This document shows positions 2,935 through 64,000 of a stretch of DNA of 64,000 nucleotides, piece after piece. The stretch's first letter is position 1. Each line of letters starts with the position of its first letter. Position numbers and translations under genes: made by a program. This stretch comes from Tragulus kanchil (taxonomy: Eukaryota; Chordata; Mammalia; Artiodactyla; Tragulidae): NCBI GenBank assembly GCA_022376925.1, contig JAIOJX010000004.1:175675501-175739500 (forward strand), in the 5' to 3' direction. Under the pieces are notes generated by a model. The model did not search any database and was not told the DNA's origin. It worked only from the letters and a program-made list of their open reading frames with translations.

Positions 2935-3107
2935 CCTAAATCATGACCATGTGTTGACTGCCTGTGTCGCCTTGTTTCGTCCTGACTACCCTTCAATGTG
3001 GGAATTGTTAGACCCACTTGACAGATAATATAATTGAGGCTTAGAGAGTTTAGGCCTGAAACTCAGAGAGTGAGCAGTTGAGCTGAGTTTCACATCTGAA
3101 TCCAGCT
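2935..3107 (-). repeat. MIR SINE relic (copy at 4073-4245)
   Basis: Antisense MIR: gggaattgttagacccactt, gacagataatataattgagg, then a degraded form of cagagaggttaagt. The second copy at offset 1138 is part of tandem duplication 1. Confidence 0.7.
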
Positions 3108-3215
3108 ATGTGTGTTTGTGCTCATCAGGTCTGGCTCCTTGAAACTCCATGGACTGTATGTGGCCTGCAGGCTTCTCTGTCCACGGAATTCTGCAGGCAA
3201 GGATACCTGAGTGTT
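3108..3215 (-). repeat. Diverged Bov-A type SINE fragment (copy at 4246-4353)
   Basis: Reads like an old antisense Bov-A unit: gtgctcatcaggtctggctc, actccatggactgtatgtgg, ggcttctctgtccacggaat, ggcaaggatacctgagtg. More diverged than the other Bov-tA copies in the window. Confidence 0.65.
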
Positions 3216-3669
3216 TTCTTGCTCTGTCGTCCTGCTAAGCCCTTTGCTGAATAATCTGGACGCCTCCTTCTCTCCCTTCTGGGCGCCCTTCCCCATCATC
3301 AGGGAGTCACTGGAGTGAAGGCATGAGGATTTGGGGAGCCATGGTGAGCTGTCTGCCCACGAGTCCTGTGTCTTATGTCACACGCACATACATTCATACA
3401 TGCACACGCACACGCTTGTCTCCGCCACGTCTCTGCAGCCGTGTCCGTGTAGAGTCTCTGTGAAGCACCTGAGTTGAGCTGTCTCTCTGCTCGTCGACTT
3501 GTTGGCCTCCGTCCCCGGGCTGGGTTCCCTGGCATTCCCATCGGCTCATCATTCCTGGGTTGGACGGGGCTTGAGGACTCCCACCCCAGGTTCAGTGTCC
3601 CCAGGGCGGTGGGGGTGGCAAGGAAAGAAGCAGCACACTCCGCCCAGTCTCAGCCCCGCCCCAGGGAAG

Positions 3670-3870
3670 CCTGGGACCTGGCTGGGGGCCCTGGGCAGCT
3701 CACACGACCTCTCTGAGCTCCAGCTCCCTCACTGGCCCGGTGACCCTCCAGCTCCCTCCACTCTGTCTCCTCAGCTAGGCCAGACTTGTGGCTCAAAAAG
3801 GGCGGTGGAAAAGAAAAAGTAGGAAAAAAAAAAAGATCAATACAAAAAAAAAAAAGACAGTGGACGTGGA
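3670..3870. repeat. MIR trace and A-rich tract (copy at 4808-5008)
   Basis: A weak sense MIR trace (cgacctctctgagctccagc) is followed by two A-runs at about 3826-3835 and 3845-3855 separated by gatcaatac. The A-rich stretch may be the tail of an old retroposon. The whole block is duplicated at offset 1138. Confidence 0.4.
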
Positions 3871-3887
3871 GGATTCCAGGGGAAGAG

Positions 3888-4078
3888 TGTGTGTGTGCTC
3901 AGTTGCTCAGTTGTGTCCGACTCTGTGCACCCCCCTTGACTGTAGCCCGCCAGGCTCCTCTGGCCATGGCAAGAATACTGGAGTGAAGAGCCATTTCCGC
4001 CTCCGGGGATCTTCCTGACGCAGGGATCGAACCCGTGTCTCCTGCAATGGCAGGCGGGTTCTTTACCACGGAGGCACC
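3888..4078 (-). repeat. Bov-tA SINE (complete copy at 5026-5222)
   Basis: Antisense Bov-tA: gctcagttgctcagttgtgt, ccgactctgtgcacc, gactgtagcccgccaggctc, caagaatactggagtgaag, gggatcgaacccgtgtctcc, ttctttaccacggaggcacc. The first copy is cut at the duplication junction; the second is complete. Confidence 0.92.
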
Positions 4079-5471
4079 TCATGACCATGTGTTGACTGCC
4101 TGTGTCGCCTTGTTTCGTCCTGACTACCCTTCAATGTGGGAATTGTTAGACCCACTTGACAGATAATATAATTGAGGCTTAGAGAGTTTAGGCCTGAAAC
4201 TCAGAGAGTGAGCAGTTGAGCTGAGTTTCACATCTGAATCCAGCTATGTGTGTTTGTGCTCATCAGGTCTGGCTCCTTGAAACTCCATGGACTGTATGTG
4301 GCCTGCAGGCTTCTCTGTCCACGGAATTCTGCAGGCAAGGATACCTGAGTGTTTTCTTGCTCTGTCGTCCTGCTAAGCCCTTTGCTGAATAATCTGGACG
4401 CCTCCTTCTCTCCCTTCTGGGCGCCCTTCCCCATCATCAGGGAGTCACTGGAGTGAAGGCATGAGGATTTGGGGAGCCATGGTGAGCTGTCTGCCCACGA
4501 GTCCTGTGTCTTATGTCACACGCACATACATTCATACATGCACACGCACACGCTTGTCTCCGCCACGTCTCTGCAGCCGTGTCCGTGTAGAGTCTCTGTG
4601 AAGCACCTGAGTTGAGCTGTCTCTCTGCTCGTCGACTTGTTGGCCTCCGTCCCCGGGCTGGGTTCCCTGGCATTCCCATCGGCTCATCATTCCTGGGTTG
4701 GACGGGGCTTGAGGACTCCCACCCCAGGTTCAGTGTCCCCAGGGCGGTGGGGGTGGCAAGGAAAGAAGCAGCACACTCCGCCCAGTCTCAGCCCCGCCCC
4801 AGGGAAGCCTGGGACCTGGCTGGGGGCCCTGGGCAGCTCACACGACCTCTCTGAGCTCCAGCTCCCTCACTGGCCCGGTGACCCTCCAGCTCCCTCCACT
4901 CTGTCTCCTCAGCTAGGCCAGACTTGTGGCTCAAAAAGGGCGGTGGAAAAGAAAAAGTAGGAAAAAAAAAAAGATCAATACAAAAAAAAAAAAGACAGTG
5001 GACGTGGAGGATTCCAGGGGAAGAGTGTGTGTGTGCTCAGTTGCTCAGTTGTGTCCGACTCTGTGCACCCCCCTTGACTGTAGCCCGCCAGGCTCCTCTG
5101 GCCATGGCAAGAATACTGGAGTGAAGAGCCATTTCCGCCTCCGGGGATCTTCCTGACGCAGGGATCGAACCCGTGTCTCCTGCAATGGCAGGCGGGTTCT
5201 TTACCACGGAGGCACCTGGGAAATTCCAAAGGGAAAGAACAGGAGAGGGTAAAGTGGTGGCTGGGGGTGGTGTTCAGAGGGGTCTCCGCTGCTGGGGTCC
5301 ATCTGAGCTCACTGGGGAAGGGCCTCCGTAAACCATGAGTGGTTCAGAACCAAGTGGGGGCTGGCCATCCCTGAATCATCTCCCCTGGAACGCAAATCCG
5401 GGAGCCCCTCCCCCAGAGGCCCTCACCTCAGCAGCCTCAGAGAGCGGGTGGGCAGCCCTCAGGCAGGCGAG

Positions 5472-6920: not shown

Positions 6921-9222
6921 AAAAATGAAACAGGAAAGGGAAACAAGGGGTGGATGTCTTTTTCATGTATAAATAAGGCATCCAGGAAGGTCTAATTGAG
7001 AAAGTGACATTTGAGCAGAGATGGCAAGGAGGTGAGGAGGTGAGTCAGATGGCTCTCTGGGGGAGCGTGTTCCAGCCAGAGGGATCAGCCAGGGCAAAGG
7101 CCCGGCGCGGGGAGCGTGCCTGGCACTGCCGAGGAGCAGCAAGGAGGCCCGCGTGGCTGGAGGGGAGGGAGGGGGGGGGAGGCGATAGCAGATGAGCTCA
7201 GAGAGGAAATGGGGGCCAGATGGCGAGGCCGCCTGGACTCACCATTTAAAAGGATCCCTCTGGCTGCTGAGTGGAGAATCGAATGGGGGAGGGGCAAGGG
7301 CAGCACCAGGGAGACGGATAGGAGGCTGTTGAAAATAATCTAACAGGGTTTGCTGATGGACTGGATGTGGGAGAGAGAGGAGAGCACGCATGAGCGGGCA
7401 GTGGGATCCAGGATGGCTCCAGAGGGTTCTGGTGGAATGGCTGGAAAGGCGGGCTGGGCCCAGAGCTTGGCAGAGGCCAGAGACGCCGCGAGGGGTTGGG
7501 GTGGCTGATCCCCACACAGTCAGAGGCCCGTGGCCAAGAGGGGTCTCTGGCTTGGCAGCCCCTGGGGGATTACAAAACTGGAGATTTATGTGCCCTTGGG
7601 GGCTACATGGATCCCAGCTCAACCCTAGGAAGGGTCACCCTCCCTGCGCTCTGGCCTGGTGGCTGGGCCTAAGGTGGTCCATGGCCAACATGAAGCCTGT
7701 CCACGTATCCTTCCTGGCCATCCACCGCCCGCTGCGCTTACCCGCCCGCCTCCCTGCCCACCTCCATCCTTCCTCCCGCCCGTCCAGCCCCACCTCAGCA
7801 CCCCAACTGCCGGGTGCGGTCCCGGGCCCTGGGGCTGTGACCGCGAGCCCAGCCGACAGCTCTCGGCTCTGGTGGACTGGCATCTCACGTCCAGGCCTGA
7901 TACAGCTTCTCCATGGGCAGGATAAGACCACGGCATCCTCGTAACTTCTTTCCAACCGACAGTCACCCAGCAAGTTTGTGACTGCATGCCATCTGACTGC
8001 TAAACATTTCTAAGTCATTTCATACAAAGTCACCATCACTAAACAAACTTTGTTCAAATCATGCCTCTGGTTTGGGTTACAGAAAAAATGAAACAGGAAA
8101 GGAAACAAGGGGTGGATGTCTTTTCATGTATAAATAAGGCATCCAGATTTGGATCTTAGCTCAGGAGGTGAGGAGGTGAGTCAGATGGCTCTCTGGGGGA
8201 GCGTGTTCCAGCCAGAGGGATCAGCCAGGGCAAAGGCCCGGCGCGGGGAGCGTGCCTGGCACTGCCGAGGAGCAGCAAGGAGGCCCGCGTGGCTGGAGGG
8301 GAGGGAGGGAGGGGGAGGCGATAGCAGATGAGCTCAGAGAGGAAATGGGGGCCAGATGGCGAGGCCGCCTGGACTCACCATTTAAAAGGATCCCTCTGGC
8401 TGCTGAGTGGAGAATCGAATGGGGGAGGGGCAAGGGCAGCACCAGGGAGACGGATAGGAGGCTGTTGAAAATAATCTAACAGGGTTTGCTGATGGACTGG
8501 ATGTGGGAGAGAGAGGAGAGCACGCATGAGCGGGCAGTGGGATCCAGGATGGCTCCAGAGGGTTCTGGTGGAATGGCTGGAAAGGCGGGCTGGGCCCAGA
8601 GCTTGGCAGAGGCCAGAGACGCCGCGAGGGGTTGGGGTGGCTGATCCCCACACAGTCAGAGGCCCGTGGCCAAGAGGGGTCTCTGGCTTGGCAGCCCCTG
8701 GGGGATTACAAAACTGGAGATTTATGTGCCCTTGGGGGCTACATGGATCCCAGCTCAACCCTAGGAAGGGTCACCCTCCCTGCGCTCTGGCCTGGTGGCT
8801 GGGCCTAAGGTGGTCCATGGCCAACATGAAGCCTGTCCACGTATCCTTCCTGGCCATCCACCGCCCGCTGCGCTTACCCGCCCGCCTCCCTGCCCACCCT
8901 CCATCCTTCCTCCCGCCCGTCCAGCCCCACCTCAGCACCCCAACTGCCGGGTGCGGTCCCGGGCCCTGGGGCTGTGACCGCGAGCCCAGCCGACAGCTCT
9001 CGGCTCTGGTGGACTGGCATCTCACGTCCAGGCCTGATACAGCTTCTCCATGGGCAGGATAAGACCACGGCATCCTCGTAACTTCTTTCCAACCGACAGT
9101 CACCCAGCAAGTTTGTGACTGCATGCCATCTGACTGCTAAACATTTCTAAGTCATTTCATACAAAGTCACCATCACTAAACAAACTTTGTTCAAATCATG
9201 CCTCCTGGTTTGGGTTACAGAA
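6921..9222. repeat. Tandem duplication 2, unit about 1.14-1.16 kb x2
   Basis: Copy 1 is 6921-8083 and copy 2 is 8084-9222. The offset is 1163 at the first bases, dropping to 1136 by 7085/8221. The start of copy 2 is damaged: agggaaac becomes aggaaac, cttttt becomes ctttt, and a stretch of about 45 bp (6976-7023) is replaced by a shorter garbled one (8148-8160). Beyond that the copies match closely, with short homopolymer differences (for example at 7165-7178 versus 8301-8314, and 7761 versus 8897). Confidence 0.93.
7481..8083. other. No gene seen (copy at 8617-9222)
   Basis: Unique-looking DNA inside duplication 2. It contains a C-rich stretch at 7735-7800 and an AT-richer tail (tttcatacaaagtcaccatc). 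The 184-codon + strand frame through here is broken in the second copy by a one-base change in a CCNCC run, so it is not a constrained gene. Confidence 0.5.
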
Positions 9223-9734
9223 AAGACTAGCAAAATTGAGGGCTCCGTGCTGCCAAGACTCAGGGGTGGGAGGGTCCCAGGGAGGTGGTCTTTATACCCA
9301 GGCCCAGAGTGGGAGAGGCATTTGGGGGGGACGCACAGCATACCCAAACACACAGGGTGCGTGGAGTGGGGTGGGGATGGGGCGGAGACTGCAAACCCGG
9401 TGGGCTGGCCGTGGCGGGGCTCATAGGCTCTGGTGCAGAATCTGGCCTTTGTTCTGAGGGCAGTTGGGGAGCACTGGAGCTGAGGAACGACCCACCCTGT
9501 GCTGGAGGCGCCACGGAGGACGAATGAGAAAAGGCGAATGGTTTGCATCAGGGAGACCAGTGAGCAGGCTGGGACCTTGATCCGCAGGGATGCTGCGACC
9601 TGACCCAGGAGAGGGAGGGGTCAGAGGCGTGGACTAGGAACAGAGGCAACTGCAGATCTGGTAAACAGGGGTGGCCCTGCTTCCCGGGGATCCCGCAATC
9701 ATCATTTCCGCTAACGTCGCTCCAGACAGGCTCC
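9223..9734. other. No gene seen (unique GC-rich DNA)
   Basis: No recognisable repeat or exon apart from a degraded repeat-like text at 9420-9660. Overlapping short frames lie on both strands. Confidence 0.4.
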
Positions 9735-9914
9735 TGCAGCACGGCCCCACCTTGGGAAAGTCCGTATCCTCACCCAGTCCTCTGGGCCCCCAGTACCCGG
9801 CGCCACCCTGGACCCCGGCTCCCCTGCGTGGGTGCCACTTTGAGACTGGCTCCCCAGGCTTCCCCAGCTGTATCCTACAGCCTCGGGCTGGGCCCTGCCT
9901 CTTCGGGCCTGGAT

Positions 9915-10180
9915 TAAAGGCCATGGCTTCCTCCCGACCTTAGACCTCCGGCCTTGTCCCGCTGGGCCATCCCCTGCAGAATAACCACAGGGATCTTTCT
10001 AGAACGTGAGTCTGGCAAGGCCACCTCCTCCTCCTGGGTTTCTCGCGGCCCTGAGGAAGCCCGCTCAGCACAGGCCCTCCTTACCGCCTGCTCCCCTTGC
10101 CGCAGCCGATGCTTCCCAACACATCTGGCCTCAGACTGACGTGCTCGTTCCTGCTTCACTCGCTGGCTAGGGCTTACTGT
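9915..10180 (+). repeat. L2 LINE 3'-region relic (copy at 11005-11268)
   Basis: Sense L2 words in order: aaggccatggcttcctcc, ccttgtcccgctgggccatc, aaccacagggatctttctag, gaacgtgagtctggcaaggc, ggcctcagactgacgtgctc. Old and not coding. Confidence 0.6.
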
Positions 10181-10282
10181 GCACCCACCCCGTGCGGGCA
10201 CCTTGCTGGCACTGAAGGTTGGGCACTGTGTGAGAGAAGAGAAACTCAGTCACGGAGTCTGGGAACACTTAAGGGCTCTCTA

Positions 10283-10520
10283 GGGCTTCCCACGTGGTGC
10301 TATGGGTAAAGAACCTGCCTGGCAATGCAAGAGAGGTAAGAGATGGGGGGTCGGTCCCTGAGTGGGGAAGATCCCCTGGAGGAGGTCACAGCAACTCTTT
10401 CCAGTGTTATTGCCTGGAGCATCCCACGGGCAGAGGAGCCTGGCAGGCTATGGTCCATCGGGTCGCCAAGGGTCATACAGGACTGAAGTGACTTAGCACA
10501 CACACACACACACGCACACA
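10283..10520 (+). repeat. Bov-tA SINE with CA-repeat tail (copy at 11373-11610)
   Basis: Sense Bov-tA: gggcttcccacgtggtgcta, taaagaacctgcctggcaat, ggaagatcccctggaggagg, ggcagaggagcctggcaggc, gactgaagtgacttagcaca, then a (CA)n run. CA tails are a common fate of Bov-tA copies. Confidence 0.92.
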
Positions 10521-12493
10521 TGCACGCAAGCACACCCACACAAGGCCTCTCTAAGGACCAGACATCTGAGCTGCGATCCAGAGGATGAACAGGAAGGGTG
10601 AAGGGAGGAGTGTTTGCGGAAGAAGGAAAGGCTAGAGCTGAGGCCAGACACCAGAGGGGCATCAAGGCACCCACTGCCTGGTACCACACTTGTCCCAAGT
10701 TGGCAGCTTGGGAGGGCAGGGGCTGAGCCTGGACAGGTGGGGAGCCGACTTCTGGGTGACATGTGGGGTACTGAGTTGGCACGCCACCTTGGCGAAAGTC
10801 CAGTTTACCCCTCACCCAGTCCCCCCTGCAGCACGGCCCCACCTTGGGAAAGTCCGTATCCTCACCCAGTCCTCTGGGCCCCCAGTACCCGGCGCCACCC
10901 TGGACCCCGGCTCCCCTGCGTGGGTGCCACTTTGAGACTGGCTCCCCAGGCTTCCCCAGCTGTATCCTACAGCCTCGGGCTGGGCCCTGCCTCTTCGGGC
11001 CTGGATTAAAGGCCATGGCTTCCTCCCGACCTTAGACCTCCGGCCTTGTCCCGCTGGGCCATCCCCTGCAGAATAACCACAGGGATCTTTCTAGAACGTG
11101 AGTCTGGCAAGGCCACCTCCTCCTCCTGGGTTTCTCGGCCCTGAGGAAGCCCGCTCAGCACAGGCCCTCCTTACCGCCTGCTCCCCTTGCCGCAGCCGAT
11201 GCTTCCCAACACATCTGGCCTCAGACTGACGTGCTCGTTCCTGCTTCACTCGCTGGCTAGGGCTTACTGTGCACCCACCCCGTGCGGGCACCTTGCTGGC
11301 ACTGAAGGTTGGGCACTGTGTGAGAGAAGAGAAACTCAGTCACGGAGTCTGGGAACACTTAAGGGCTCTCTAGGGCTTCCCACGTGGTGCTATGGGTAAA
11401 GAACCTGCCTGGCAATGCAAGAGAGGTAAGAGATGGGGGGTCGGTCCCTGAGTGGGGAAGATCCCCTGGAGGAGGTCACAGCAACTCTTTCCAGTGTTAT
11501 TGCCTGGAGCATCCCACGGGCAGAGGAGCCTGGCAGGCTATGGTCCATCGGGTCGCCAAGGGTCATACAGGACTGAAGTGACTTAGCACACACACACACA
11601 CACGCACACATGCACGCAAGCACACCCACACAAGGCCTCTCTAAGGACCAGACATCTGAGCTGCGATCCAGAGGATGAACAGGAAGGGGTGAAGGGAGGA
11701 GTGTTTGCGGAAGAAGGAAAGGCTAGAGCTGAGGCCAGACACCAGAGGGGCATCAAGGCACCCACTGCCTGGTACCCCACACTTGTCCCAAGTTGGCAGC
11801 TTGGGAGGGGCAGGGGCTGAGCCTGGACAGGTGGGGGAGCCGACTTCTGGGTGACATGTGGGGTAGATTGAGGTGTGGGGCATTTTATCACTTAAAAAAT
11901 AACTTTATTGAGATATTTATCATTTTTTTAAAAAAGCTTTTTTGAGATATAACTCATATACATTAAATTCACCCTTTTAAACTGTATAATTCAATAGCTT
12001 TTAGTATATTTATAGAGCTGGGCAACCATGACCAGTATCTAATTCCAGAACAGCTCCATCACCCCCAAAGCAACTCGGTATCCACCAGCAGTCTCTACTC
12101 CTCCTCCTCCCAGCACCTGGCAGCCACTAATCTACTTTCTGTCTCTGAGGATTTGCCGGTTTCAGACATTTCCCATAAATGAAATCAGACAGCATGTGAC
12201 CTTTTGTGTCTGGCTTCTCTCACTTAGCATAATTTTCTTTTTTAAGATTCATTCATGTTGTAGCATGAATCAGTAAGTCATTCCTTTTTTATGGCCAAAT
12301 AATATTCCACCGAATAGCTAGACTATATTTCCACATTTGATTCATCCATTCATTCATTGGTGGGCAGTTGTTTCCATTTAGAGGCTATTATGAATAATGC
12401 TGCTAAAAACATTCTGTACAAATTGTTGTGTGGATATGTGTTTTCATTTCTCTTGGATACATATCTAGAGATGGAATTGCTGTGTTATATAGT

Positions 12494-13368: not shown

Positions 13369-15592
13369 CCTCAGAGACACCACGACCTGTCCCTCTGTGA
13401 CACGGCCGCAGTCTCAGCTGCGACAGATCAGCCGCCTCTGAGGCCCCGAGGTCCAGCCCGTGGCCTGACGGGGCCCCCAGCCGATGGGCAGGCGGCAGGG
13501 GGACGTCGCGGGCCTGTCTGCGGGAGGGACGCCTGCCAGGATGGCCGCAGCCCCCTCGGGCCAGGCCCTCCCTCGCCCTGCTTATTTAAACTTTCTTGAA
13601 CTTTCCACACTTTGTAAGCTGAGCTCCTCCAACTTGGAGCATCAGGACAAATGGTGAAAAACACAAAATCCAACCACGGTTACTGGCTGATGCAGCTGAG
13701 GCCTCAGTGAGTTCCCTTCCCATGGCCGCCCAGGGCCGGGGGCTGGGCTGAACACACAGAACAGTGCTGGCTGGGCCGGTCCCGTGGGGGTCTCACCTCC
13801 CTCCACGCCCCTCCAGCCTGGGTGTTTGCCTGCCCGTAGCCCCCAGTCCCACGCCATTGGTTGGGACAATGTGTGTGTCTGGGTTGAGGGGCGGGTGGGA
13901 TTGGGAGGTTGACTCTAGGCCACTGCAAAGCCCCGGGGCGCAAGGTACAGAGAGGGCCAGGGGCCTGACAGCTCACGGAGAGACCCTTGACACCGCTGAG
14001 GCCCCTGAGTCCAGCATCCGGAAGCTGGGGAGGGAGCCACTAGGGGGAAGCTCCCAGCTTTCCTTCACGAGGGTGAGGATTTCAGAATGGCGATGACAGC
14101 ATGCGGGCAGTGCACAGAGCACAGAGGCCGGGCGCACTGAGGAGCTGACCGGTCAGGGCTCTCATCTCAGGGCTGGAAGAAAGCAGGTGGAAAGCCAGCT
14201 GATGTGGACCGCCCCTGGGCCCCTGCTGCCTGGCCCAGAGCCCACCTCCCCCGTGGTCCTCAGTGCTGCGGACCCACCGTCCTCCCCGCCCTTCCCTAAC
14301 CTCTGCCTTGGCCCTCAGTCTGGTTCCCAGACCTCTCCCCTCCAGCCGGGCTGGCTGCTCTCCCAGAGAACGCTTCTCGTCGTCGCAGGATTGGGCCTCA
14401 GGCTTGCTCCTCACCCCCGCGGCGCCCCAGCTGGGCCCGCCACCCACCACCTGCCACCCGCCCACGTGGAACCTGCCGGGCCTCAGAGACACCACGACCT
14501 GTCCCTCTGTGACACGGCCGCAGTCTCAGCTGCGACAGATCAGCCGCCTCTGAGGCCCCGAGGTCCAGCCCGTGGCCTGACGGGGCCCCCAGCCGATGGG
14601 CAGGCGGCAGGGGGACGTCGCGGGCCTGTCTGCGGGAGGGACGCCTGCCAGGATGGCCGCAGCCCCCTCGGGCCAGGCCCTCCCTCGCCCTGCTTATTTA
14701 AACTTTCTTGAACTTTCCACACTTTGTAAGCTGAGCTCCTCCAACTTGGAGCATCAGGACAAATGGTGAAAAACACAAAATCCAACCACGGTTACTGGCT
14801 GATGCAGCTGAGGCCTCAGTGAGTTCCCTTCCCATGGCCGCCCAGGGCCGGGGGCTGGGCTGAACACACAGAACAGTGCTGGCTGGGCCGGTCCCGTGGG
14901 GGTCTCACCTCCCTCCACGCCCCTCCAGCCTGGGTGTTTGCCTGCCCGTAGCCCCCAGTCCCACGCCATTGGTTGGGACAATGTGTGTGTCTGGGTTGAG
15001 GGGCGGGTGGGATTGGGAGGTTGACTCTAGGCCACTGCAAAGCCCCGGGGCGCAAGGTACAGAGAGGGCCAGGGGCCTGACAGCTCACGGAGAGACCCTT
15101 GACACCGCTGAGGCCCCTGAGTCCAGCATCCGGAAGCTGGGGAGGGAGCCACTAGGGGGAAGCTCCCAGCTTTCCTTCACGAGGGTGAGGATTTCAGAAT
15201 GGCGATGACAGCATGCGGGCAGTGCACAGAGCACAGAGGCCGGGCGCACTGAGGAGCTGACCGGTCAGGGCTCTCATCTCAGGGCTGGAAGAAAGCAGGT
15301 GGAAAGCCAGCTGATGTGGACCGCCCCTGGGCCCCTGCTGCCTGGCCCAGAGCCCACCTCCCCCGTGGTCCTCAGTGCTGCGGACCCACCGTCCTCCCCG
15401 CCCTTCCCTAACCTCTGCCTTGGCCCTCAGTCTGGTTCCCAGACCTCTCCCCTCCAGCCGGGCTGGCTGCTCTCCCAGAGAACGCTTCTCGTCGTCGCAG
15501 GATTGGGCCTCAGGCTTGCTCCTCACCCCCGCGGCGCCCCAGCTGGGCCCGCCACCCACCACCTGCCACCCGCCCACGTGGAAGCCCCTCTG
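13369..15592. repeat. Tandem duplication 4, unit 1112 bp x2
   Basis: 13369-14480 is repeated at 14481-15592 with constant offset 1112 and almost no difference until the last bases of copy 1 (cccacgtggaacctgccggg versus cccacgtggaagcccctctg). The unit begins in plain unique sequence (cctcagagacaccacgacc). Part of the window-wide series. Confidence 0.95.
13440..14480. other. No gene seen (copy at 14552-15592)
   Basis: Unique GC-rich DNA with a short AT-richer block (cttatttaaactttcttgaa at 13580-13600). Overlapping frames of 75-174 codons on both strands lack domains. The + strand frame ending at 14711 crosses the artificial junction. Confidence 0.45.
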
Positions 15593-16204: not shown

Positions 16205-16440
16205 GGCGCATGTTTGTTGAGCACCTACTATGTGTTCAGCTCACGGAGCACACGGAGCAAGGATCAAGACCAACAAAAAATTCCCATCCTCACAGAGCTT
16301 GTGTGCAAAGACAGGCCATCCACAGGTGATTAAAGACAATTTAAAATACTGAGCGTTAAAAAAAAAAAATACTGAGAGTTACTACGGAGACACAAAGATG
16401 GGGGAGTCGGGCCGTGTTGAAGCTAGAGGGAGACGGGGGG
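16205..16440. repeat. Ancient interspersed repeat (mostly copied at 17391-17582)
   Basis: Text tttgttgagcacctactatg, ttcccatcctcacagagctt, gattaaagacaatttaaaat and agagttactacggagacaca resembles the same old unnamed mammalian element seen at 6-7.5 kb. An A-run sits at about 16360. Confidence 0.5.
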
Positions 16441-16554
16441 CCTCCTTAAGCCTCCCTTACCCTCCTCTCTGGGGGGCCTCTCTCGGTGACCCCCAGGACA
16501 ATCCTGGACCTTGAGGGACTCAGTCCTCCATCAGTCACTGCTACCAAAGCCTGT

Positions 16555-16775
16555 GGACTTCTCTGGTAGCTCAGATGGTAAAGGATCTGCCTACAATGCA
16601 GAAGACCTGGGTTCAATCTCTGGGTCAGGAAGATCTCCGTGGAGAAGAGAATGGCTACCCACTCCAGTATTCTCACCTGGAGATTCCCATGGACAGAGGA
16701 GCCTGGTGGGCTACAAATCCATGAGGTCACAAAGACGCAAACACGACTGAGCAACTAACCCTTTCGCTTTCACCA
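16555..16775 (+). repeat. Bov-tA SINE (copy at 17697-17917)
   Basis: Sense Bov-tA, well preserved: acttctctggtagctcagat, ggtaaaggatctgcctacaa, tgcagaagacctgggttcaa, gaagagaatggctacccact, ccagtattctcacctggaga, cacgactgagcaactaaccc. Confidence 0.95.
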
Positions 16776-16869
16776 GGGCCTGTAGGCTGGGCAGTCTTGT
16801 TCAGGTCAAAACTAGGCCTGCGGTCAAGAGGGGCTGCCCTGGGTCCCTAGCTTGGGTCTGGCTGCCTTT

Positions 16870-17150
16870 ATTAATCTTGAGAGTAGTGAGCAATGAGCTA
16901 ACGCTGTCCAAGTGTCCCCGATGCCTGGCAACGCTCTAAACATCAAGCCTGAGTTATCTTATTTAATCGACACCACGATCAGATAATGTGGGAACTGTCG
17001 TTCCTATTTTATAGACAAGGAAACCGAGGCCCAGCAAGGTTGTGCAACTTGCCTCAGGCCACACAGCTGGTACTGTGGAGCTAGGATGTGCACCCTGCAG
17101 AGCCCTTGCTTTTAACGGGTCTGCCTTCCTGGTCAAGGTCACACGCCTTG
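16870..17150 (-). repeat. MIR SINE, long copy (copy at 18012-18292)
   Basis: Nearly full-length antisense MIR: gatgcctggcaacgctctaa, gagttatcttatttaatcga, ttttatagacaaggaaaccg, aggcccagcaaggttgtgca, cttgcctcaggccacacagc, tggtactgtggagctaggat. One of the best MIRs in the window. Confidence 0.85.
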
Positions 17151-49728: not shown

Positions 49729-49734
49729 TTTTTG

Positions 49735-49895
49735 TGCAGGTGAGGCTGTTTCTTTTTGGTTACATTCACTAGTTTATCATTTAGATTCCATATGTGAGTG
49801 ATATCCCACAGCATTTGTCTTCCTCCAGCTTATTTCACTAAGCATAATACCCCACCCCAAGTCCATTCATGTTGTTGCAAATGGCAAGTTTTCAA
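49735..49895 (-). repeat. L1 fragment, cut by duplication junction (fuller copies at 50818-51160 and 51962-52304)
   Basis: Antisense L1: cactagtttatcatttagat, tccatatgtgagtgatatcc, cagcttatttcactaagcat, attcatgttgttgcaaatgg. In the longer copies it continues with ctttttatggctgagtaata, gacagacacttaggttgcat and ttgggaataatgctgctacg, then stops. Confidence 0.9.
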
Positions 49896-50600
49896 CTGTG
49901 TTCCAGCCACTGTGTTCCACAGCGTTCTGGCAGGAAGGGCCTTGCAGACGGATGGGACAGTACACGCAAAGGTTCAGGGCCAGAACGTGGATCGTGAGTG
50001 AGCAGAGCGGCCAGAACGCCGGTGTGGCTACAGCAGTGACTGGGTGTGAGTCGAAGATGGGGAGGATGGAGAAGCTGAGGGGCTTGATCTTGACCAACTG
50101 GGGGCTCACTGTGCTCCCTTGTCTCTTATTCTCGAATCAGGACCGCCGTGGGAGAGGGCAGAGGGGGATGGTAGACCGGAAAGGGCAGAATGCTGCAGCA
50201 GGGCAGGATCTCGGGGCTCCCGTGGGGCAGAATGAGCCGGAGGGAAACTCTTGGCGGGAGGGGCTGGGATGGGGGAGAGGGAAGCTTCCTGGGAAAGGCC
50301 CGGCTGTTGAGCTGCACCGCAGCCCTGTTCTGGCATCGAACAGCAGGACTGCTCAGCCGACTCCCTTGCCTGCCTCCGCCTGGCGTGAGGAAGGGGCTTC
50401 ACGCTCAGCCCTGGTGGTTTATTTAGTTGTCCACCACTGACTCAGTTTCGTCATCCAGAATATGGGAGTCCTGGTACTTGTGAGAACTAGATAGGACAAT
50501 TGTAATGTCTGGTGCTGGTGGAAAGTTACAACGCTGCTTACTGACCGCCTGCAGTCGCATTCCATTCTCTGGGCTCAAATTGTTGTTGGTCAGTCTCTTA

Positions 50601-52889
50601 GTCGTGTCTGGCCCTTGGTGACCCCAGGGACTGCAGCACGCCAGGCTTCTCTGTCCTTCACCATCGCCCGGAGTTTGCTCAAACTCATGCCTATCGAATC
50701 GGTGATGCCGTCCAGCCATCTCGTCCTCGGTCGTCCCCTTCTCCCGCCTTTGGTCTTTCCCAGCATCAGGGTCTTTTCCGATGACTTGCTTGGCTCAGAT
50801 CATGTCCCCATTTTTTGTGCAGGTGAGGCTGTTTCTTTTTGGTTACATTCACTAGTTTATCATTTAGATTCCATATGTGAGTGATATCCCACAGCATTTG
50901 TCTTCCTCCAGCTTATTTCACTAAGCATAATACCCCCACCCCCAAGTCCATTCATGTTGTTGCAAATGGCAAGTTTTCAATTCTTTTTATGGCTGAGTAA
51001 TATTCCGGTGTGTGTGTGTATACATTATATATATTTATATATTTGTTATATCTTCTTTATCCACTCATATGTCGACAGACACTTAGGTTGCATCCTTATT
51101 TTGGCTCTTGGGAATAATGCTGCTACGAACCTTGGAGTGCATATACATTTTTAAATTTTATACAGAGGAAATTGAAGGTCAGAAATGGAAGTAACTTGCT
51201 CAGAGCCCCTCTGGGTCCTCATGTGCTCAGACTCAGAGTGGGAAGGAGAGAGAGAGACCTGGAATTGGGGCCCTGCCCCTGTCTACACACACAGCGAGGC
51301 CCCCATGGCCTTCCAGGTCTGCCCAGGCAGGAGTGAGCCTGGACACTGTGGGAGGTGGGCCCAGCCCTCAGGTCTCCCTGACTGTGGGACACAAGGTCAG
51401 GGCTGGAGGAGCATCCACGACGACCGTCATTCATGCCGTGCTTGCTGCGTGGAATGCCCTGCCCCCTAGCCAAGTGCTCACCCTTTATGTCTCAGTTCAG
51501 ACCAGCGCCTCCTCCTGGAAGCCTTCTCTGACGTAGTCCCCAAAGATCACACACCAGCAGGGTGCCCCATAACCCTGCACTCATGTCACTCAGCATGGAC
51601 CTTGCTGGTGCTATCATCTGTCCGCCTCCACCCAGCCTGGGGCTCCTGGCTTGTGGGCTGTGTCCCAGCCCTCTTGTACCCCAGTGTCTCTCACTAGGGC
51701 TGTGGAACACAGTGGGCTGGGCCTCGTGTTTGCTTTTCCCTCCCAGTCGTGTCTGGCCCTTGGTGACCCAGGGACTGCAGCACGCCAGGCTTCTCTGTCC
51801 TTCACCATCGCCCGGAGTTTGCTCAAACTCATGCCTATCGAATCGGTGATGCCGTCCAGCCATCTCGTCCTCGGTCGTCCCCTTCTCCCGCCTTTGGTCT
51901 TTCCCAGCATCAGGGTCTTTTCCGATGACTTGCTTGGCTCAGATCATGTCCCCATTTTTTGTGCAGGTGAGGCTGTTTCTTTTTGGTTACATTCACTAGT
52001 TTATCATTTAGATTCCATATGTGAGTGATATCCCACAGCATTTGTCTTCCTCCAGCTTATTTCACTAAGCATAATCCCCCCACCCCCAAGTCCATTCATG
52101 TTGTTGCAAATGGCAAGTTTTCAATTCTTTTTATGGCTGAGTAATATTCCGGTGTGTGTGTGTATACATTATATATATTTATATATTTGTTATATCTTCT
52201 TTATCCACTCATATGTCGACAGACACTTAGGTTGCATCCTTATTTTGGCTCTTGGGAATAATGCTGCTACGAACCTTGGAGTGCATATACATTTTTAAAT
52301 TTTATACAGAGGAAATTGAAGGTCAGAAATGGAAGTAACTTGCTCAGAGCCCCTCTGGGTCCTCATGTGCTCAGACTCAGAGTGGGAAGGAGAGAGAGAG
52401 ACCTGGAATTGGGGCCCTGCCCCTGTCTACACACACAGCGAGGCCCCCATGGCCTTCCAGGTCTGCCCAGGCAGGAGTGAGCCTGGACACTGTGGGAGGT
52501 GGGCCCAGCCCTCAGGTCTCCCTGACTGTGGGACACAAGGTCAGGGCTGGAGGAGCATCCACGACGACCGTCATTCATGCCGTGCTTGCTGCGTGGAATG
52601 CCCTGCCCCCTAGCCAAGTGCTCACCCTTTATGTCTCAGTTCAGACCAGCGCCTCCTCCTGGAAGCCTTCTCTGACGTAGTCCCCAAAGATCACACACCA
52701 GCAGGGTGCCCCCATAACCCTGCACTCATGTCACTCAGCATGGACCTTGCTGGTGCTATCATCTGTCCGCCTCCACCCAGCCTGGGGGCTCCTGGCTTGT
52801 GGGCTGTGTCCCAGCCCTCTTGTACCCCCAGTGTCTCTCATAGGGCGTGGCATGGAGCTGCTGTCAGGGAAGGCCTGTGGAACACAGTG
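50601..52889. repeat. Tandem duplication 12, unit about 1145 bp x2
   Basis: 50601-51745 is repeated from 51746 (gtcgtgtctggcccttggtg); the offset is 1145, then 1144 after gaccccaggg becomes gacccaggg. Copy 1 loses about 45 bases near its end (cactagggctgtggaacaca versus tcatagggcgtggcatggag...ggcctgtggaacaca) and ends with garbled tcgtgtttgcttttccctcc. It overlaps duplication 11. Confidence 0.95.
51420..51690 (+). repeat. L2 LINE 3'-region relic (copy at 52564-52830)
   Basis: Sense L2: gtgcttgctgcgtggaatgc, cctttatgtctcagttcaga, tcctcctggaagccttctct, gacgtagtccccaaagatca, cactcatgtcactcagcatg. Confidence 0.75.
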
Positions 52890-56815: not shown

Positions 56816-56959
56816 AGAACCAGGTGCCGTGGGGTCCTTGGCTGCGCCAGACCCGGCAAGAGCCCAGGGCCCCTCAGGAACGGCGGCCCTACTGCCCTGT
56901 TTCCTCCTCGCTGCAGACGGTGTTCAAGGTGCAGAGGGTGCTGACCCTGCCCTGGCCTG

Positions 56960-57330
56960 GGAGGGTGACCTTGTAGCGGAGAGGTCAAGGTCAGGAAGGA
57001 GGAAGAGCATTTCAGGAAGAGGGAACGGCTGTGGGTGAGACGAAGCTTGCTGTGCTCCCAGGACAGAATTCTGCCTGCGCCGCTGGGAACCTCAGGAGTT
57101 GTCCAGGGTGAGGGCCGGGGTCCTCTCAGAGCCCTGAAAGTGCCCCAGGAAGCAGGAAGAAGTCTGGCCGATGATGAAGGATACCCTGGAGAGGGGGAGG
57201 TGGTGTGGGGAGTAAACCACGAAGGGCAGCAGGATTCTGCCAGGTGGTGGTAGACCCAAGGAGGGGCCTTCCAGGAGGCAGGAGCAGCGTGAATGAGGTT
57301 CAGACGGTGGGGAGAGCGCGTGCTGAGAGG
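56960..57330. repeat. Ancient interspersed repeat (copy at 58106-58474)
   Basis: ggaagaggaagagcatttca, ggatacaccctggagagg-type text, gcagcaggattctgccaggt and gaatgaggttcagacggtgg follow the same old element. Confidence 0.4.
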
Positions 57331-57524
57331 CCCTGTGCGCGGTGGAGGGCTCCTCTCTGACTTGGGGGGAGAGAGGGTGCCATATTGGACTGGGTGATCG
57401 GAGGCCACCTGGGAAGCCTTTGGTGGCTCACCTAGCCGATCGCGTACCATCAGGCCAGGAGGTCCGGAGCACGGGTGTGGGCGTCCTGCCAAGTGCCAGG
57501 GTGTCCACCCACATCCCAGCGGCC

Positions 57525-57650
57525 GCCCCGACTCATCACAGGCCTGCCAAGTGCCAGGCCCCGGAGACGCTCCGGAACCACCTGCAGGTGGGCATTGTCA
57601 CCCGCTCTCCCAGGTGGCAAAGCTGAGGCCCGGAGAAGGGGCTTGTCCGG
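57525..57650 (-). repeat. MIR fragment (copy at 58669-58794)
   Basis: Antisense: aagtgccaggccccggagac, aggtgggcattgtcacccgc, caggtggcaaagctgaggcc, cggagaaggggcttgtcc. Confidence 0.6.
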
Positions 57651-58053
57651 GGGGCGTGTGTGGTGGTGGTGGGAGTCAGGCAGGGGAGCCTCAGCTGGGA
57701 AGCTTGCGAGAACCTGGCTTGCCCGAGCAGGCCTGGACAGGGCATGATGGCCCACCCCTGACCCCCGTGCCCTGAGCTGTGTGGATGTGCGCCCCGAGGC
57801 CTGGGCGTCGCCATGCGAGGCGCGGGTGTGCGAGGGTGGCAGCCAGGAGCCTGGCGCGTCCTGCCCTCGCCTGCAGCTCAGACACGGGAAGGGAGAGGAG
57901 ACGCTCTGTGAGCTCCCAGGCATCTGCAGCTTCCTGGCTTTTCACGGCCGGGGTGACCATCTGCCCCTTTCAGATGAGGACCCCGAGGCGCGGAGCAGCA
58001 GCAGGAGGAGTGGGGCTTCGCAGCTCCTGGGGCTGAGCTGGGGAAGCCACGGG
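57651..58053. other. No gene seen (copy at 58795-59197)
   Basis: GC-rich unique DNA. Frames of 85-157 codons occur in both copies and on both strands, with no domain. Confidence 0.45.
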
Positions 58054-59322
58054 CCCCCCGCTAGGAGTGGGGCCGCATCGAGGGTGCTGACCCTGCCCTG
58101 GCCTGGGAGGGTGACCTTGTAGCGGAGAGGTCAAGGTCAGGAAGGAGGAAGAGCATTTCAGGAAGAGGGAACGGCTGTGGGTGAGACAGCTTGCTGTGCT
58201 CCCAGGACAGAATTCTGCCTGCGCCGCTGGGAACCTCAGGAGTTGTCCAGGGTGAGGGCCGGGGTCCTCTCAGAGCCCTGAAAGTGCCCCAGGAAGCAGG
58301 AAGAAGTCTGGCCGATGATGAAGGATACCCTGGAGAGGGGGAGGTGGTGTGGGGAGTAAACCACGAAGGGCAGCAGGATTCTGCCAGGTGGTGGTAGACC
58401 CAAGGAGGGGCCTTCCAGGAGGCAGGAGCAGCGTGAATGAGGTTCAGACGGTGGGGAGAGCGCGTGCTGAGAGGCCCTGTGCGCGGTGGAGGGCTCCTCT
58501 CTGACTTGGGGGGAGAGAGGGTGCCATATTGGACTGGGTGATCGGAGGCCACCTGGGAAGCCTTTGGTGGCTCACCTAGCCGATCGCGTACCATCAGGCC
58601 AGGAGGTCCGGAGCACGGGTGTGGACGTCCTGCCAAGTGCCAGGGTGTCCACCCACATCCCAGCGGCCGCCCCGACTCATCACAGGCCTGCCAAGTGCCA
58701 GGCCCCGGAGACGCTCCGGAACCACCTGCAGGTGGGCATTGTCACCCGCTCTCCCAGGTGGCAAAGCTGAGGCCCGGAGAAGGGGCTTGTCCGGGGGGCG
58801 TGTGTGGTGGTGGTGGGAGTCAGGCAGGGGAGCCTCAGCTGGGAAGCTTGCGAGAACCTGGCTTGCCCGAGCAGGCCTGGACAGGGCATGATGGCCCACC
58901 CCTGACCCCCGTGCCCTGAGCTGTGTGGATGTGCGCCCCGAGGCCTGGGCGTCGCCATGCGAGGCGCGGGTGTGCGAGGGTGGCAGCCAGGAGCCTGGCG
59001 CGTCCTGCCCTCGCCTGCAGCTCAGACACGGGAAGGGAGAGGAGACGCTCTGTGAGCTCCCAGGCATCTGCAGCTTCCTGGCTTTTCACGGCCGGGGTGA
59101 CCATCTGCCCCTTTCAGATGAGGACCCCGAGGCGCGGAGCAGCAGCAGGAGGAGTGGGGCTTCGCAGCTCCTGGGGCTGAGCTGGGGAAGCCACGGGCTG
59201 TCTGTCCCCCGGCGCGCCCTGCGGGACGGTGATGAGGATGGTGGCGGCCGTGCACGGGGGCTGTCGTCTTGGGCTTCGATCTCGACACTTGTTTCGCCAG
59301 GTCACAGACCTTCCAGGGTCGA

Positions 59323-59545
59323 AGGCCTCCCCGGGTGGCTCAGATGGTAACGAATCAACCTACAGTGCAGGAGACCTGAGTTCAGTCCCTGGGTCGGGAA
59401 GATCCCCTGGAGAAGGGACTGATCACTCACCCCAGTCTTCTTGCCTGGAGAATGCCACGGACAGAGGAGCCTGGCGGGCCGCAGTCCGTGGGGTCAAAAA
59501 GAGCTGGACATGACTGAGTGACAAACGCACACACACACACACAAG
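59323..59545 (+). repeat. Bov-tA SINE with CA tail (copy at 60412-60635)
   Basis: Sense Bov-tA: ggcctccccgggtggctcag, tgcaggagacctgagttcag, ggaagatcccctggagaagg, gaatgccacggacagaggag, ctggacatgactgagtgaca, then (CA)n at 59527-59542. Confidence 0.95.
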
Positions 59546-60076
59546 CCCTAGTCACCTGCACCCGCCCTCACGGCCCCTTCAAGGATTCTTCTAAGATGTG
59601 GGCCCACCGGCCCTGGCTTTGTCAGACCCCCATTAATAAGGTCCGATCCAGCCAAGGGATCCGCTCTCCTGCCGCCGTGCCCATGTGAATCCCACTCCCA
59701 GCAGAGGTTGGCCAGACCAGGCAGAGCCATGGCTGCGATTGCTGACCTGGGGCCTGGCTAGCAGCCTGCTGACTGGCAGGAAACAGGGATCGTCGAGTCC
59801 TTGATGCTTTATCCCCCCGTCACTGGCTCATTCAGTCACTCACGACAGGCACCTTCTAGGCATCTGAGAGTCTCCATTTTCTCTGTGGCCTCTGCCTGGT
59901 AGAGTGCCAACTATAGCGTATATACCCTGTGAGTTACATACCATCTCTACAGGGTGACTGCAAAATCCTAGGAAGGTTTTTTCCCAACGTTCAGGGTCTC
60001 CCTCCCTTGGTCTGTGCCAGTTGGCAAAAATTTTACCATTAATGACTCATTCCTTTGGCGTAACTATTGCCCTGAT
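59546..60076. other. No gene seen (copy at 60636-61165)
   Basis: Mixed-composition DNA. A stretch with tttcccaacgttcagggtct and gtatataccctgtgagttac has no recognised family. Confidence 0.4.
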
Positions 60077-60140
60077 CCTGGTGGGCTGCTATCCATAGAG
60101 TTGCACAGAATTGGACACAACTGAAGACTTAGCATGCACA
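60077..60140 (+). repeat. Bov-tA 3' fragment (copy at 61166-61229)
   Basis: Sense 3' part: ctggtgggctgctatccata, gagttgcacagaattggaca, caactgaagacttagcatgc. Confidence 0.85.
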
Positions 60141-61300
60141 GCACTCACCTTGGCCTGTCCAGGCTCCTCTTCTGAGATGCAAACCCTTGGAGTCTCAGTA
60201 CCCTTTTCAGGAGGAGCCCCGAGGCGAGCAGCAGCAGGAGGAGTGGGGCTTCGCAGCTCCTGGGGCTGAGCTGGGGAAGCCACGGGCTGTCTGTCCCCCG
60301 GCGCGCCCTGCGGGACGGTGATGAGGATGGTGGCGGCCGTGCACGGGGGCTGTCGTCTTGGGCTTCGATCTCGACACTTGTTTCGCCAGGTCACAGACCT
60401 TCCAGGGTCGAAGGCCTCCCCGGGTGGCTCAGATGGTAACGAATCAACCTACAGTGCAGGAGACCTGAGTTCAGTCCCTGGGTCGGGAAGATCCCCTGGA
60501 GAAGGGACTGATCACTCACCCCAGTCTTCTTGCCTGGAGAATGCCACGGACAGAGGAGCCTGGCGGGCCCGCAGTCCGTGGGGTCAAAAAGAGCTGGACA
60601 TGACTGAGTGACAAACGCACACACACACACACAAGCCCTAGTCACCTGCACCCGCCCTCACGGCCCCTTCAAGGATTCTTCTAAGATGTGGGCCCACCGG
60701 CCCTGGCTTTGTCAGACCCCCATTAATAAGGTCCGATCCAGCCAAGGGATCCGCTCTCCTGCCGCCGTGCCCATGTGAATCCCACTCCCAGCAGAGGTTG
60801 GCCAGACCAGGCAGAGCCATGGCTGCGATTGCTGACCTGGGGCCTGGCTAGCAGCCTGCTGACTGGCAGGAAACAGGGATCGTCGAGTCCTTGATGCTTT
60901 ATCCCCCCGTCACTGGCTCATTCAGTCACTCACGACAGGCACCTTCTAGGCATCTGAGAGTCTCCATTTTCTCTGTGGCCTCTGCCTGGTAGAGTGCCAA
61001 CTATAGCGTATATACCCTGTGAGTTACATACCATCTCTACAGGGTGACTGCAAAATCCTAGGAAGGTTTTTTCCCAACGTTCAGGGTCTCCCTCCCTTGG
61101 TCTGTGCCAGTTGGCAAAAATTTTACCATTAATGACTCATTCCTTTGGCGTAACTATTGCCCTGATCCTGGTGGGCTGCTATCCATAGAGTTGCACAGAA
61201 TTGGACACAACTGAAGACTTAGCATGCACAGCACTCACCTTGGCCTGTCCAGGCTCCTCTTCTGAGATGCAAACCCTTGGAGTCTCAGTACCCTTTTCAG

Positions 61301-61469
61301 GGAGGAGACCCTTTTGAGTCCCAGTTTCTGGACAATCCATGTTCCTAAGAGACTGACACCATCTTGAACATACAAGGCTGTGGCTCACAGGGTCACAGGA
61401 GGAAGAGGGGAAAGAGGCAGCGTCAGGACAGGTGGCTGGTCCTGTGCACCTGCTAGGGGCCTGGAATTA
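61301..61469. other. Unique DNA
   Basis: A short stretch between duplication 14 and the BovB fragment; no feature recognised. Confidence 0.4.
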
Positions 61470-62000: not shown

Positions 62001-62221
62001 TTACGTATTCTTGCTCTTATCTCGGCCCTGGGTTGAAGATATTTTTGTTCCTGCTTCGGGGAGCCAGCTGAAGCGCCCCTAAGGTTTCTCAGCTGGCCTT
62101 GGGTCTGCGTGGCTCCCATCCACACTCTTTCCTGCCCCTCGCTCCTGCCCAGGGCGTGATCATGTGACCTGGAAGGGCACCAAGGGCAGCTCCTCTGGGC
62201 TCCCAGCTGCAGCAGGGGCCC
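62001..62221. other. No gene seen
   Basis: Unique DNA; nothing recognised. Confidence 0.4.
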
Positions 62222-62654
62222 GATCCTCCTAGTGTGTGAAAGGCCGTCACTCCGGAATCTGCTCTGAGCCTTGCACTGACCCTCTGGGGCAGAAATGTCC
62301 CCATTTCTCTGAGGAGGAGACAGGCACAAAGAGTCTGGGGCCTCACATGTGGCCCTCCAGCAGAGGGGTGTGAGGGCCAGTGCCCCCGCTCCTACGGAAC
62401 ACCACCCAGTGCCTCCTCCACCCGCTGTGTCGGGGGCAGTGAGGGTCTCAGCTGGCCTTGGTGCCGGGAGATGAGGCCTTCAGACGGCCCGCTCTGCCGC
62501 CCTGACCACAGGCCCCGTGGCTGGCCTGCGGGGCCTCCGGCGCAGGGCCCCGCCCGCCTGCCGCCCCTGCCCCGCCAACTGCCCTCGCTCACGTGCCCAC
62601 CTTCCCGAGGGGAGGGGTCTGCGGACGCGGCTCTGGCCAGCCCCGGGTCAGCCG

Positions 62655-62790
62655 GGCACTCCTAATTGTCCGCCCTCCAGGCCGTATTTTCTCCAGTATT
62701 GATGAGCCACTGTCACCAGGGCACAGCCAGAAGCGCAGCGAAACCCAAGACGGATCGGGTCCCCCGCTCATCAATCTCCCCGCGGCCACT
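62655..62790. promoter_or_regulatory. Candidate conserved non-coding element (copy at 63776-63911)
   Basis: ctcctaattgtccgccctcc, gtattttctccagtattgat, gagccactgtcaccagggca and cgctcatcaatctccccgcg. Homeodomain and ATCAAT-type words without repeat text, next to a CpG-rich stretch. Confidence 0.3.
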
Positions 62791-62974
62791 CTGCTGCGGG
62801 GGGAGGGCGGCCGCGTGGGCCGGGCCGTGGGGGGTGCCAGGCTCGCCGTGTGGTCTTCTTAAACCACAAATCTACCTGCTGGGTAGATTCACTGCTCCCT
62901 GTGAGGGAATTTGCAGGGTGACCAGGACCTGGCAATCTTCCGTTCTCAGGTTCCCAGCCTGGCGGCTCATGGCC

Positions 62975-63240
62975 TGAGGGATAAAAGCCAAACTGTGCCC
63001 TAAGCCGCCAGGCCCTGTGTTCCAGGGGCCCCAGCATCGGGTCCAGCAGTGCAGGCCACACCCCTTCCCGTCCCTGCTGGTCCTTCTGCCTGGAGCGCCG
63101 TCTTCACGCTCTGTTCCCTGCTGTCGGCCTGTGTTAAGGTCTGGCTGAAACACCCCTGCTCGGAGCTCCTGCCCACACGGGGCTGGATTCCTGTTGCTGT
63201 CGGGGGTCTCTCAGCACCACTCAGCTCTCCAGCCAACCCT
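62975..63240 (+). repeat. L2 LINE 3'-region relic
   Basis: Sense L2: ggataaaagccaaactgtgc, ccttctgcctggagcgccgt, cttcacgctctgttccctgc, gtgttaaggtctggctgaaa, cacccctgctcggagctcc. Confidence 0.7.
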
Positions 63241-64000
63241 CCCGACCGCTGGAACCAATGGATTACTTCTGAGAATCTCTGTTCCTGTCCTGTCTTCCCG
63301 ACTGCAGTGTCAGCCCTGTGGCCGCAGGACCGGGTTCGTCTTGTTTTCCCAGATCCTCCTAGTGTGTGAAAGGCCGTCACTCCGGAATCTGCTCTGAGCC
63401 TTGCAGTGGGCAGAAATGTCCCCATTTCTCTGAGGAGGAGACAGGCACAAAGAGTCTGGGGCCTCACATGTGGCCCTCCAGCAGAGGTGTGTGAGGGCCA
63501 GTGCCCCCGCTCCTACGGAACACCACCCAGTGCCTCCTCCACCCGCTGTGTCGGGGGCAGTGAGGGTCTCAGCTGGCCTTGGTGCCGGGAGATGAGGCCT
63601 TCAGACGGCCCGCTCTGCCGCCCTGACCACAGGCCCCGTGGCTGGCCTGCGGGGCCTCCGGCGCAGGGCCCCGCCCGCCTGCCGCCCCTGCCCCGCCAAC
63701 TGCCCTCGCTCACGTGCCCACCTTCCCGAGGGGAGGGGTCTGCGGACGCGGCTCTGGCCAGCCCCGGGTCAGCCGGGCACTCCTAATTGTCCGCCCTCCA
63801 GGCCGTATTTTCTCCAGTATTGATGAGCCACTGTCACCAGGGCACAGCCAGAAGCGCAGCGAAACCCAAGACGGATCGGGTCCCCCGCTCATCAATCTCC
63901 CCGCGGCCACTCTGCTGCGGGGGGAGGGCGGCCGCGTGGGCCGGGCCGTGGGGGGTGCCAGGCTCGCCGTGTGGTCTTCTTAAACCACAAATCTACCTGC

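Follow-up and report, generated by a model that had tools for sequence, protein, structure and literature searches.

Tandem pairs of one size in the Tragulus kanchil genome assembly, probably 1.1-kb overlaps written twice

Duplicated overlapping contigs are described, in the passages concerned, among whole-genome shotgun contigs, where the duplication was ascribed to haplotype divergence and mis-assembled cases numbered up to 13,159 (13.7 Mb) in one genome (Kelley and Salzberg 2010, PMC2864568). A second kind, called homotype false duplication, is treated in part of Ko et al. 2022 (PMC9516828). As far as the cited descriptions go, reads are cut by the assembler Redbean/wtdbg2 into segments of 1024 bases, which serve as the vertices of its graph (PMC7730629), and the wtdbg2 consensus is made by a second program, wtpoa-cns (PMC12037172). 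Here, we describe 15 head-to-tail, near-identical pairs, with copies about 1.1 kb apart, in a 64,000-base stretch of the Tragulus kanchil assembly GCA_022376925.1 (contig JAIOJX010000004.1; C3:175675501-175739500), called the window below. They are almost certainly an assembly artefact of unusual extent and not biology. Features of the sequence point, with a probability of about 0.97, to neighbouring pieces that shared about 1.1 kb and were written consecutively, the shared part being left unmerged.

Near-identical pairs in the window

All 15 pairs were recovered from diagonals of shared exact 24-mers and by self-BLAST, as an annotation made earlier from the letters alone (the sequence-only reading) had described them. 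The start-to-start offsets range from 1072 to 1163 bases, with a mean of 1118 and a standard deviation (SD) of 28, which bears out the near-constant length claimed there. The offsets listed in that reading agree with ours to within a few bases, apart from that of the seventh pair, given as 1137 and measured as 1096-1102. The main aligned piece of each pair shows 98.2-100% identity (self-BLAST), and a separate 65-base piece at the start of pair 2 shows 96.9%. The two copies are identical in pairs 1 and 4, while the remaining 13 pairs carry 1-17 difference events each. Near-identical pairs of such length do not arise by chance.

The units had also been called mutually unrelated, and they are indeed alike only in repeat-like stretches of 67-78% identity and where neighbours overlap. 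Such overlaps between neighbouring units amount to 62, 66 and 381 bases, so that some stretches are present in three copies. Altogether, 16,774 of the 64,000 bases are redundant, and 47,226 are left once the extra copies are removed. The window contains no N, and the GC content is 0.617 in the duplicated and 0.611 in the other sequence. The pairs, based on self-BLAST and pair alignment, are as follows; the strand is given as "." for all of them.

Pair 1, 2941..5217: copy 1 2941-4079, copy 2 4079-5217; offset 1138; identical copies.
Pair 2, 6921..9224: copy 1 6921-8086, copy 2 8084-9224; offset 1163 at first, then 1136-1138; copy 2 begins shortened and degraded (about 8084-8162).
Pair 3, 9733..11865: copy 1 9733-10770, 54-base spacer, copy 2 10825-11865; offset 1092; four of the five differences are deletions in G/C runs towards the 3' end of copy 1.
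Pair 4, 13369..15583: copy 1 13369-14471, 9-base spacer, copy 2 14481-15583; offset 1112; identical copies.
Pair 5, 16244..18519: copy 1 16244-17377, 10-base spacer, copy 2 17388-18519; offset 1144.
Pair 6, 19265..21476: copy 1 19265-20351, 35-base spacer, copy 2 20387-21476; offset 1122; copy 2 has deletions at its 5' end, copy 1 in its 3' part.
Pair 7, 21411..23537: copy 1 21411-22435, 71-base spacer, copy 2 22507-23537; offset 1096 at the start, 1096-1102 over the pair; overlaps the end of pair 6.
Pair 8, 24856..27136: copy 1 24856-25997, copy 2 25994-27136; offset 1138.
Pair 9, 29232..31436: copy 1 29232-30335, copy 2 30334-31436; offset 1102; 7 clustered substitutions.
Pair 10, 42316..44421: copy 1 42316-43344, 43-base spacer, copy 2 43388-44421; offset 1072; the bases ahead of copy 2 resemble the sequence following copy 2.
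Pair 11, 48811..50980: copy 1 48811-49895, copy 2 49896-50980; offset 1085; overlaps pair 12 by about 381 bases, which are therefore in three copies.
Pair 12, 50600..52840: copy 1 50600-51693, 51-base spacer, copy 2 51745-52840; offset 1145; the bases ahead of copy 2 resemble the sequence following copy 2.
Pair 13, 56934..59198: copy 1 56934-58054, 25-base spacer, copy 2 58080-59198; offset 1146.
Pair 14, 59137..61301: copy 1 59137-60211, 14-base spacer, copy 2 60226-61301; offset 1089; shares 62 bases with pair 13.
Pair 15, 62222..64000: copy 1 from 62222, copy 2 from 63352; offset 1130; truncated where the window ends.

Spread through the assembly and doubled exons

The assembly comprises 3,167,203,957 bases in 32 contigs, sixteen of 73-297 Mb and the other sixteen of at most 10.7 Mb; the sixteen of chromosome size point to a low chromosome number. 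Dispersed-repeat matches outside the window (40 of 3508 candidates scored) revealed eight tandem pairs, 1084-1176 bases apart. A random sample of 20 stretches of 10 kb was drawn over the 15 contigs holding a dispersed-repeat match, up to the positions then known, and landed on nine contigs. Five other contigs supplied one further 10-kb stretch each, at round coordinates; one of these contigs (C7) lies outside the 15. The stretches were scanned by k-mer chaining, and chains with offsets of 300-4000 bases were counted.

At least one pair was present in 18 of the 20 random stretches and in all five further ones. Among the 71 near-identical chains found in these 25 stretches, 60 have offsets of 1000-1250, and none has an offset of 600-1000 or 1250-2150. 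Another five, at 2150-2300 and spread over five loci, resemble harmonics that overlapping neighbours would produce. The 45 complete pairs outside the window, drawn from offsets of 950-1300, have a mean offset of 1111 (SD 28.5, range 1038-1170). The duplication is assembly-wide in the sampled stretches, not local to the window. In the random set, 48,976 of 200,000 bases are redundant (about 24.5%); minus this share, the assembly would come to about 2.39 Gb.

The number of pairs did not correlate significantly with GC content over the 25 stretches (Spearman -0.26, p 0.22). Together with the near-equal GC content inside and outside the window duplications, this speaks against a dependence on base composition.

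Other chains were observed in the same stretches, and runs of N in several loci of the assembly. Five of the 71 chains, at offsets of 300-600 (315-505), all lie in locus L027 (C32:76694988-76704987), and these short-offset tandem pairs are perhaps satellite sequence. One chain near 3400 is a near-identical pair about 3.4 kb apart at 1-5347 of L022 (C3:124094735-124104734), beside a 1.15-kb pair. The N runs of L014 (7882-8085 and 8993-9196) and L016 (6679-6755 and 7782-7858) are equally long in the two copies of a duplication and identically placed within them, which suggests masking. Those of L017 (5745-5812, 68 bases) and L034 (a 100-base stretch, 1-100, wholly N) could be masking or gaps, and the N runs do not settle the version of the artefact.

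The doubling also reaches coding sequence. The RNA polymerase domain PF04998 gave 18 matches at three loci (on C6, C17 and C26), presumably those of the largest subunits of the three nuclear polymerases. Grouped by hand according to locus and model position, the 18 rows represent 11 distinct exon matches, of which seven are doubled with starts 1.05-1.14 kb apart: three on C6, three on C17 and one on C26. The doubled C26 exon lies inside a complete 1.08-kb pair (L051), and one C6 exon lies inside a complete 1.11-kb pair (L055). Some of the C6 and C26 matches contain stop codons, which we put down to matches running into introns. True tandem duplications would leave a plausible exon structure in essential genes, which is not what these seven doubled exon matches show. 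Since exon doubling at all three loci would be expected to wreck essential genes, the copies are very unlikely to be real.

Errors and spacers at the junctions

Length differences between the copies, taken from complete pairs found by chaining, are distributed very unevenly. In the window, 7 of the places at which copy 1 is shorter lie in its first half and 22 in its second, against 12 and 0 for copy 2 (Fisher p 6e-6). The corresponding numbers outside the window are 5 and 36 for copy 1 and 34 and 3 for copy 2 (p 4e-13). The deletions crowd to the 3' end of copy 1 and the 5' end of copy 2, both sides facing the junction, and, taken pair by pair, the polarity is as expected for 10 of the 12 informative window pairs and 25 of the 31 outside. 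When junction-side deletions are counted per pair, the 14 complete window pairs have them in copy 1 only (2), copy 2 only (4), both (5) or neither (3), and the 45 outside pairs in copy 1 only (11), copy 2 only (9), both (7) or neither (18). Most one-base length differences outside the window (36 of 46) are within runs of at least two equal bases. Such errors may correspond to the poorly covered ends of two long-read consensus pieces.

Substitutions comprise 39 transitions and 46 transversions, a departure from a 2:1 ratio (p 1e-4). Of 90 substitutions, 64 lie at most 60 bases from another. They look error-like, unlike allelic variation. Two clusters stand out in the window: at 29366-29467 (pair 9), C in copy 1 is opposed to another base in copy 2, and at 43039-43097 (pair 10), copy 1 has mostly G or C. 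Both look like local consensus error.

The spacers between copies were compared with the flanks of the pairs. Spacers of 20-120 bases were aligned with two flanks, the one following copy 2 and the one preceding copy 1, and z above 4 was taken as a match; 31 spacers from the 59 complete pairs could be used, the rest of the pairs having a shorter, longer or no spacer or too little flank. Thirteen spacers match the sequence after copy 2, eight match the sequence before copy 1, and none matches both. Seven of the tested spacers are in the window, and three of them match (pairs 2, 10 and 12). The spacer of pair 2 (8087-8162 as delimited here) nearly repeats part of the approximately 100 bases before 7027, but with run-length deletions. 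Judged from these alignments, 21 of the 31 spacers are degraded continuations of one piece or the other, never of both. Because these spacers match one flank, each piece can run slightly past the shared anchor as degraded sequence. A mobile element or a target-site process was rejected as the source of the pairs: the units are unrelated, the sequence common across a junction does not exceed 6 bases, and two thirds of the tested spacers continue a flank.

The other features of the window are few. Among repeats considered in the self-BLAST (>88% identity, >60 bases), those remaining besides the pairs are third copies at overlapping neighbour pairs, one 79-base minisatellite and one 87-base pair. 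The minisatellite (27519-27900) consists of about 4.8 copies of 79-base units that are 93-97% alike. The 87-base direct repeat is exact (39510-39596 and 40012-40098, 502 bases apart) and unlike the 1.1-kb kind. Ten of the 221 window open frames of at least 110 codons were scanned; they gave no Pfam match at E 0.1, and no gene was identified among them. The frame 17015-17470, doubled by pair 5, has one weak PDB match (E 0.017) and no homologue at E 0.001. ARAGORN reports six tRNA-like matches (1428-1501, 12553-12626, 16560-16632, 17702-17774, 42492-42565 and 43564-43637), of which only the first reaches the Rfam threshold. The last four are in fact two, each doubled, by pairs 5 and 10. These matches are probably tRNA-derived repeats. 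SINE-like peptides in the sequence point to a ruminant.

Origin of the pairs and comparison with known false duplications

In the window and in the 45 sampled pairs, copies of the same orientation abut without any element of their own, and their errors lie mostly at the junction side, as false duplication by an unmerged overlap would have it. One size, junction-facing errors, degraded continuations and doubled exons, taken together, suggest a fixed-size anchor kept twice. An overlap or anchor of about 1.1 kb, retained twice at joins, was the explanation already offered by the sequence-only reading, and it gains from the narrow sizes found assembly-wide and from the errors, spacers and exons just described.

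Under this explanation, the chromosomes would be chains of separately built long-read consensus pieces, each sharing about 1.1 kb with the next, and both neighbours would include one fixed-size anchor, a node of the assembly graph. If the pieces were left unaligned and unmerged, both would be written in full, giving two head-to-tail copies of the shared node. Few reads would support the pieces where they meet, at the end of one and the start of the next, and run-length deletions and short degraded tails would be left at the junction. The pieces presumably derive from long reads and are presumably poorly covered at their ends.

Several observations weigh against this explanation. Four of the 11 distinct PF04998 exon matches are single, as expected if only some overlaps stayed unmerged. 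The polarity of length differences fails in 2 of the 12 informative window pairs and in 5 of the 31 outside, where one further pair is a tie. Pair 7 is the weightiest exception in the window: six of its seven differences are copy-1 deletions in the first half. Neither copy has a junction-side deletion in 18 of the 45 outside pairs and 3 of the 14 window pairs, and 10 of the 31 spacers match neither flank above the cut-off. Two more points concern the assembler, for which a candidate is considered next.

The program is inferred from the size and spacing of the units: there is a slightly better than even chance that the anchor is the 1024-base node used by an assembler of the wtdbg/wtdbg2 (Redbean) type and that its consensus step left overlapping nodes unmerged. 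In wtdbg2, bins measure 256 bases and adjacent nodes can have about one bin in common; where neighbouring units share a node, wtpoa-cns should align and merge them there. With extra copies removed, neighbouring duplications are irregularly spaced, 704-11,982 bases apart. None of 37 spacings is below 700, although 5.7 would be expected if placement were random; it is as though only partial overlap of anchors were allowed. The observed units (mean 1111-1118, SD 28) exceed the 1024-base node by about 90 bases, for which bin jitter is needed. In a toy model of 1024-base nodes binned by 256 bases, overlaps of 1079-1165 (SD 15-40) were obtained at support cut-offs of 0.3-0.4; however, the model has free parameters and gave 1024-1230 over all cut-offs tried. 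Its agreement with the observed size is consistent with such a node, not proof of it. A dog assembly made with wtdbg2/wtpoa-cns from Canu-corrected reads contains, according to the passage concerned, less duplicated sequence than other dog assemblies (PMC8228171). A wtdbg2 origin would therefore require an unusual run; otherwise a different fixed-anchor tool would have to be responsible.

The overlaps could instead have been left unmerged by some other fixed-overlap step, such as fixed chunks or windows in polishing or consensus, or by another fixed-anchor assembler. The fixed size and the junction-facing errors fit this equally well, yet fixed chunks imply regular spacing, and the spacings observed show no period by eye; we regard such a step as unlikely, while giving it real weight.

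Gap filling, in which contigs are joined across gaps by a long-read filler and about 1.1 kb of anchoring flank is left in the sequence, would likewise give a fixed size and noisy sequence near the junctions. It also suits a window without N and the 20 of 45 outside pairs that have deletions in one copy only. However, a noisy filler copy should be noisy all along, whereas the deletions crowd at the junction side of either copy and occur there in both copies of 5 of 14 complete window pairs and 7 of 45 outside pairs. Joins down to 704 bases apart, and overlaps that themselves overlap, would be odd, and about one join per 4 kb would require a very fragmented draft. As junction-side errors fall in copy 1 about as often as in copy 2 and duplications come so close together, two equal consensus pieces sharing a graph node fit better than a noisy filler. 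The sequence-only reading had spoken of filled gaps or joined contigs; the joining stands, and the filling seems improbable.

Two haplotypes assembled side by side (heterotype false duplication) are a known source of false adjacent duplications, as parts of PMC2864568 and PMC9516828 describe. Allelic bubbles have no fixed length, though. The copies here are identical in 9 of 59 pairs, their length differences point towards the junction, and most substitutions are clustered, transversions exceeding transitions, so that the variants are not allele-like. This origin is very improbable.

Least credible of all is a real, genome-wide process by which any sequence would be duplicated in place in units of about 1.1 kb, roughly once every 4 kb, the unprecedented process that the sequence-only reading had held out as its alternative: the assembled sequence does show the pairs, but about 24% of the random sample would then be extra copies from recent 1.1-kb tandem duplications, exons would be doubled at all three loci resembling RNA polymerase largest subunits, and the length differences would still lie mostly at junction-facing ends.

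If the pairs are unmerged overlaps, about 0.78 Gb of a chromosome-scale assembly is apparently false sequence (24.5% of 3.167 Gb, extrapolated from the 20 random 10-kb stretches). Errors would follow in the gene models, copy-number calls and alignments that rest on it, and in its repeat content and genome size. Other long-read assemblies can be checked cheaply for the same failure by scanning them for tandem pairs at 1.0-1.2 kb. Among the papers listed in literature searches, no prior report of an artefact of doubled overlaps of about 1.1 kb turned up, which is no proof of absence.

Among the systems named at the outset, each is compared as far as its cited description goes. The wtdbg2/Redbean node offers a fixed anchor of about 1 kb that neighbouring layout pieces could share, but it measures 1024 bases, and the units here average 1111-1118. 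The pairs resemble duplicated overlapping contigs (PMC2864568) in that the overlapping ends of neighbours are both kept, giving a false adjacent duplication; they differ in their fixed size, in copies that abut or nearly do so, and in making about a quarter of the sampled assembly redundant. With homotype false duplication (PMC9516828), ascribed there to read errors that prevent collapse, they share the absence of a haplotype difference. That kind occupies 0.4-2.7% of the earlier assemblies, whereas here the share is about 24%, in a fixed 1.1-kb unit.

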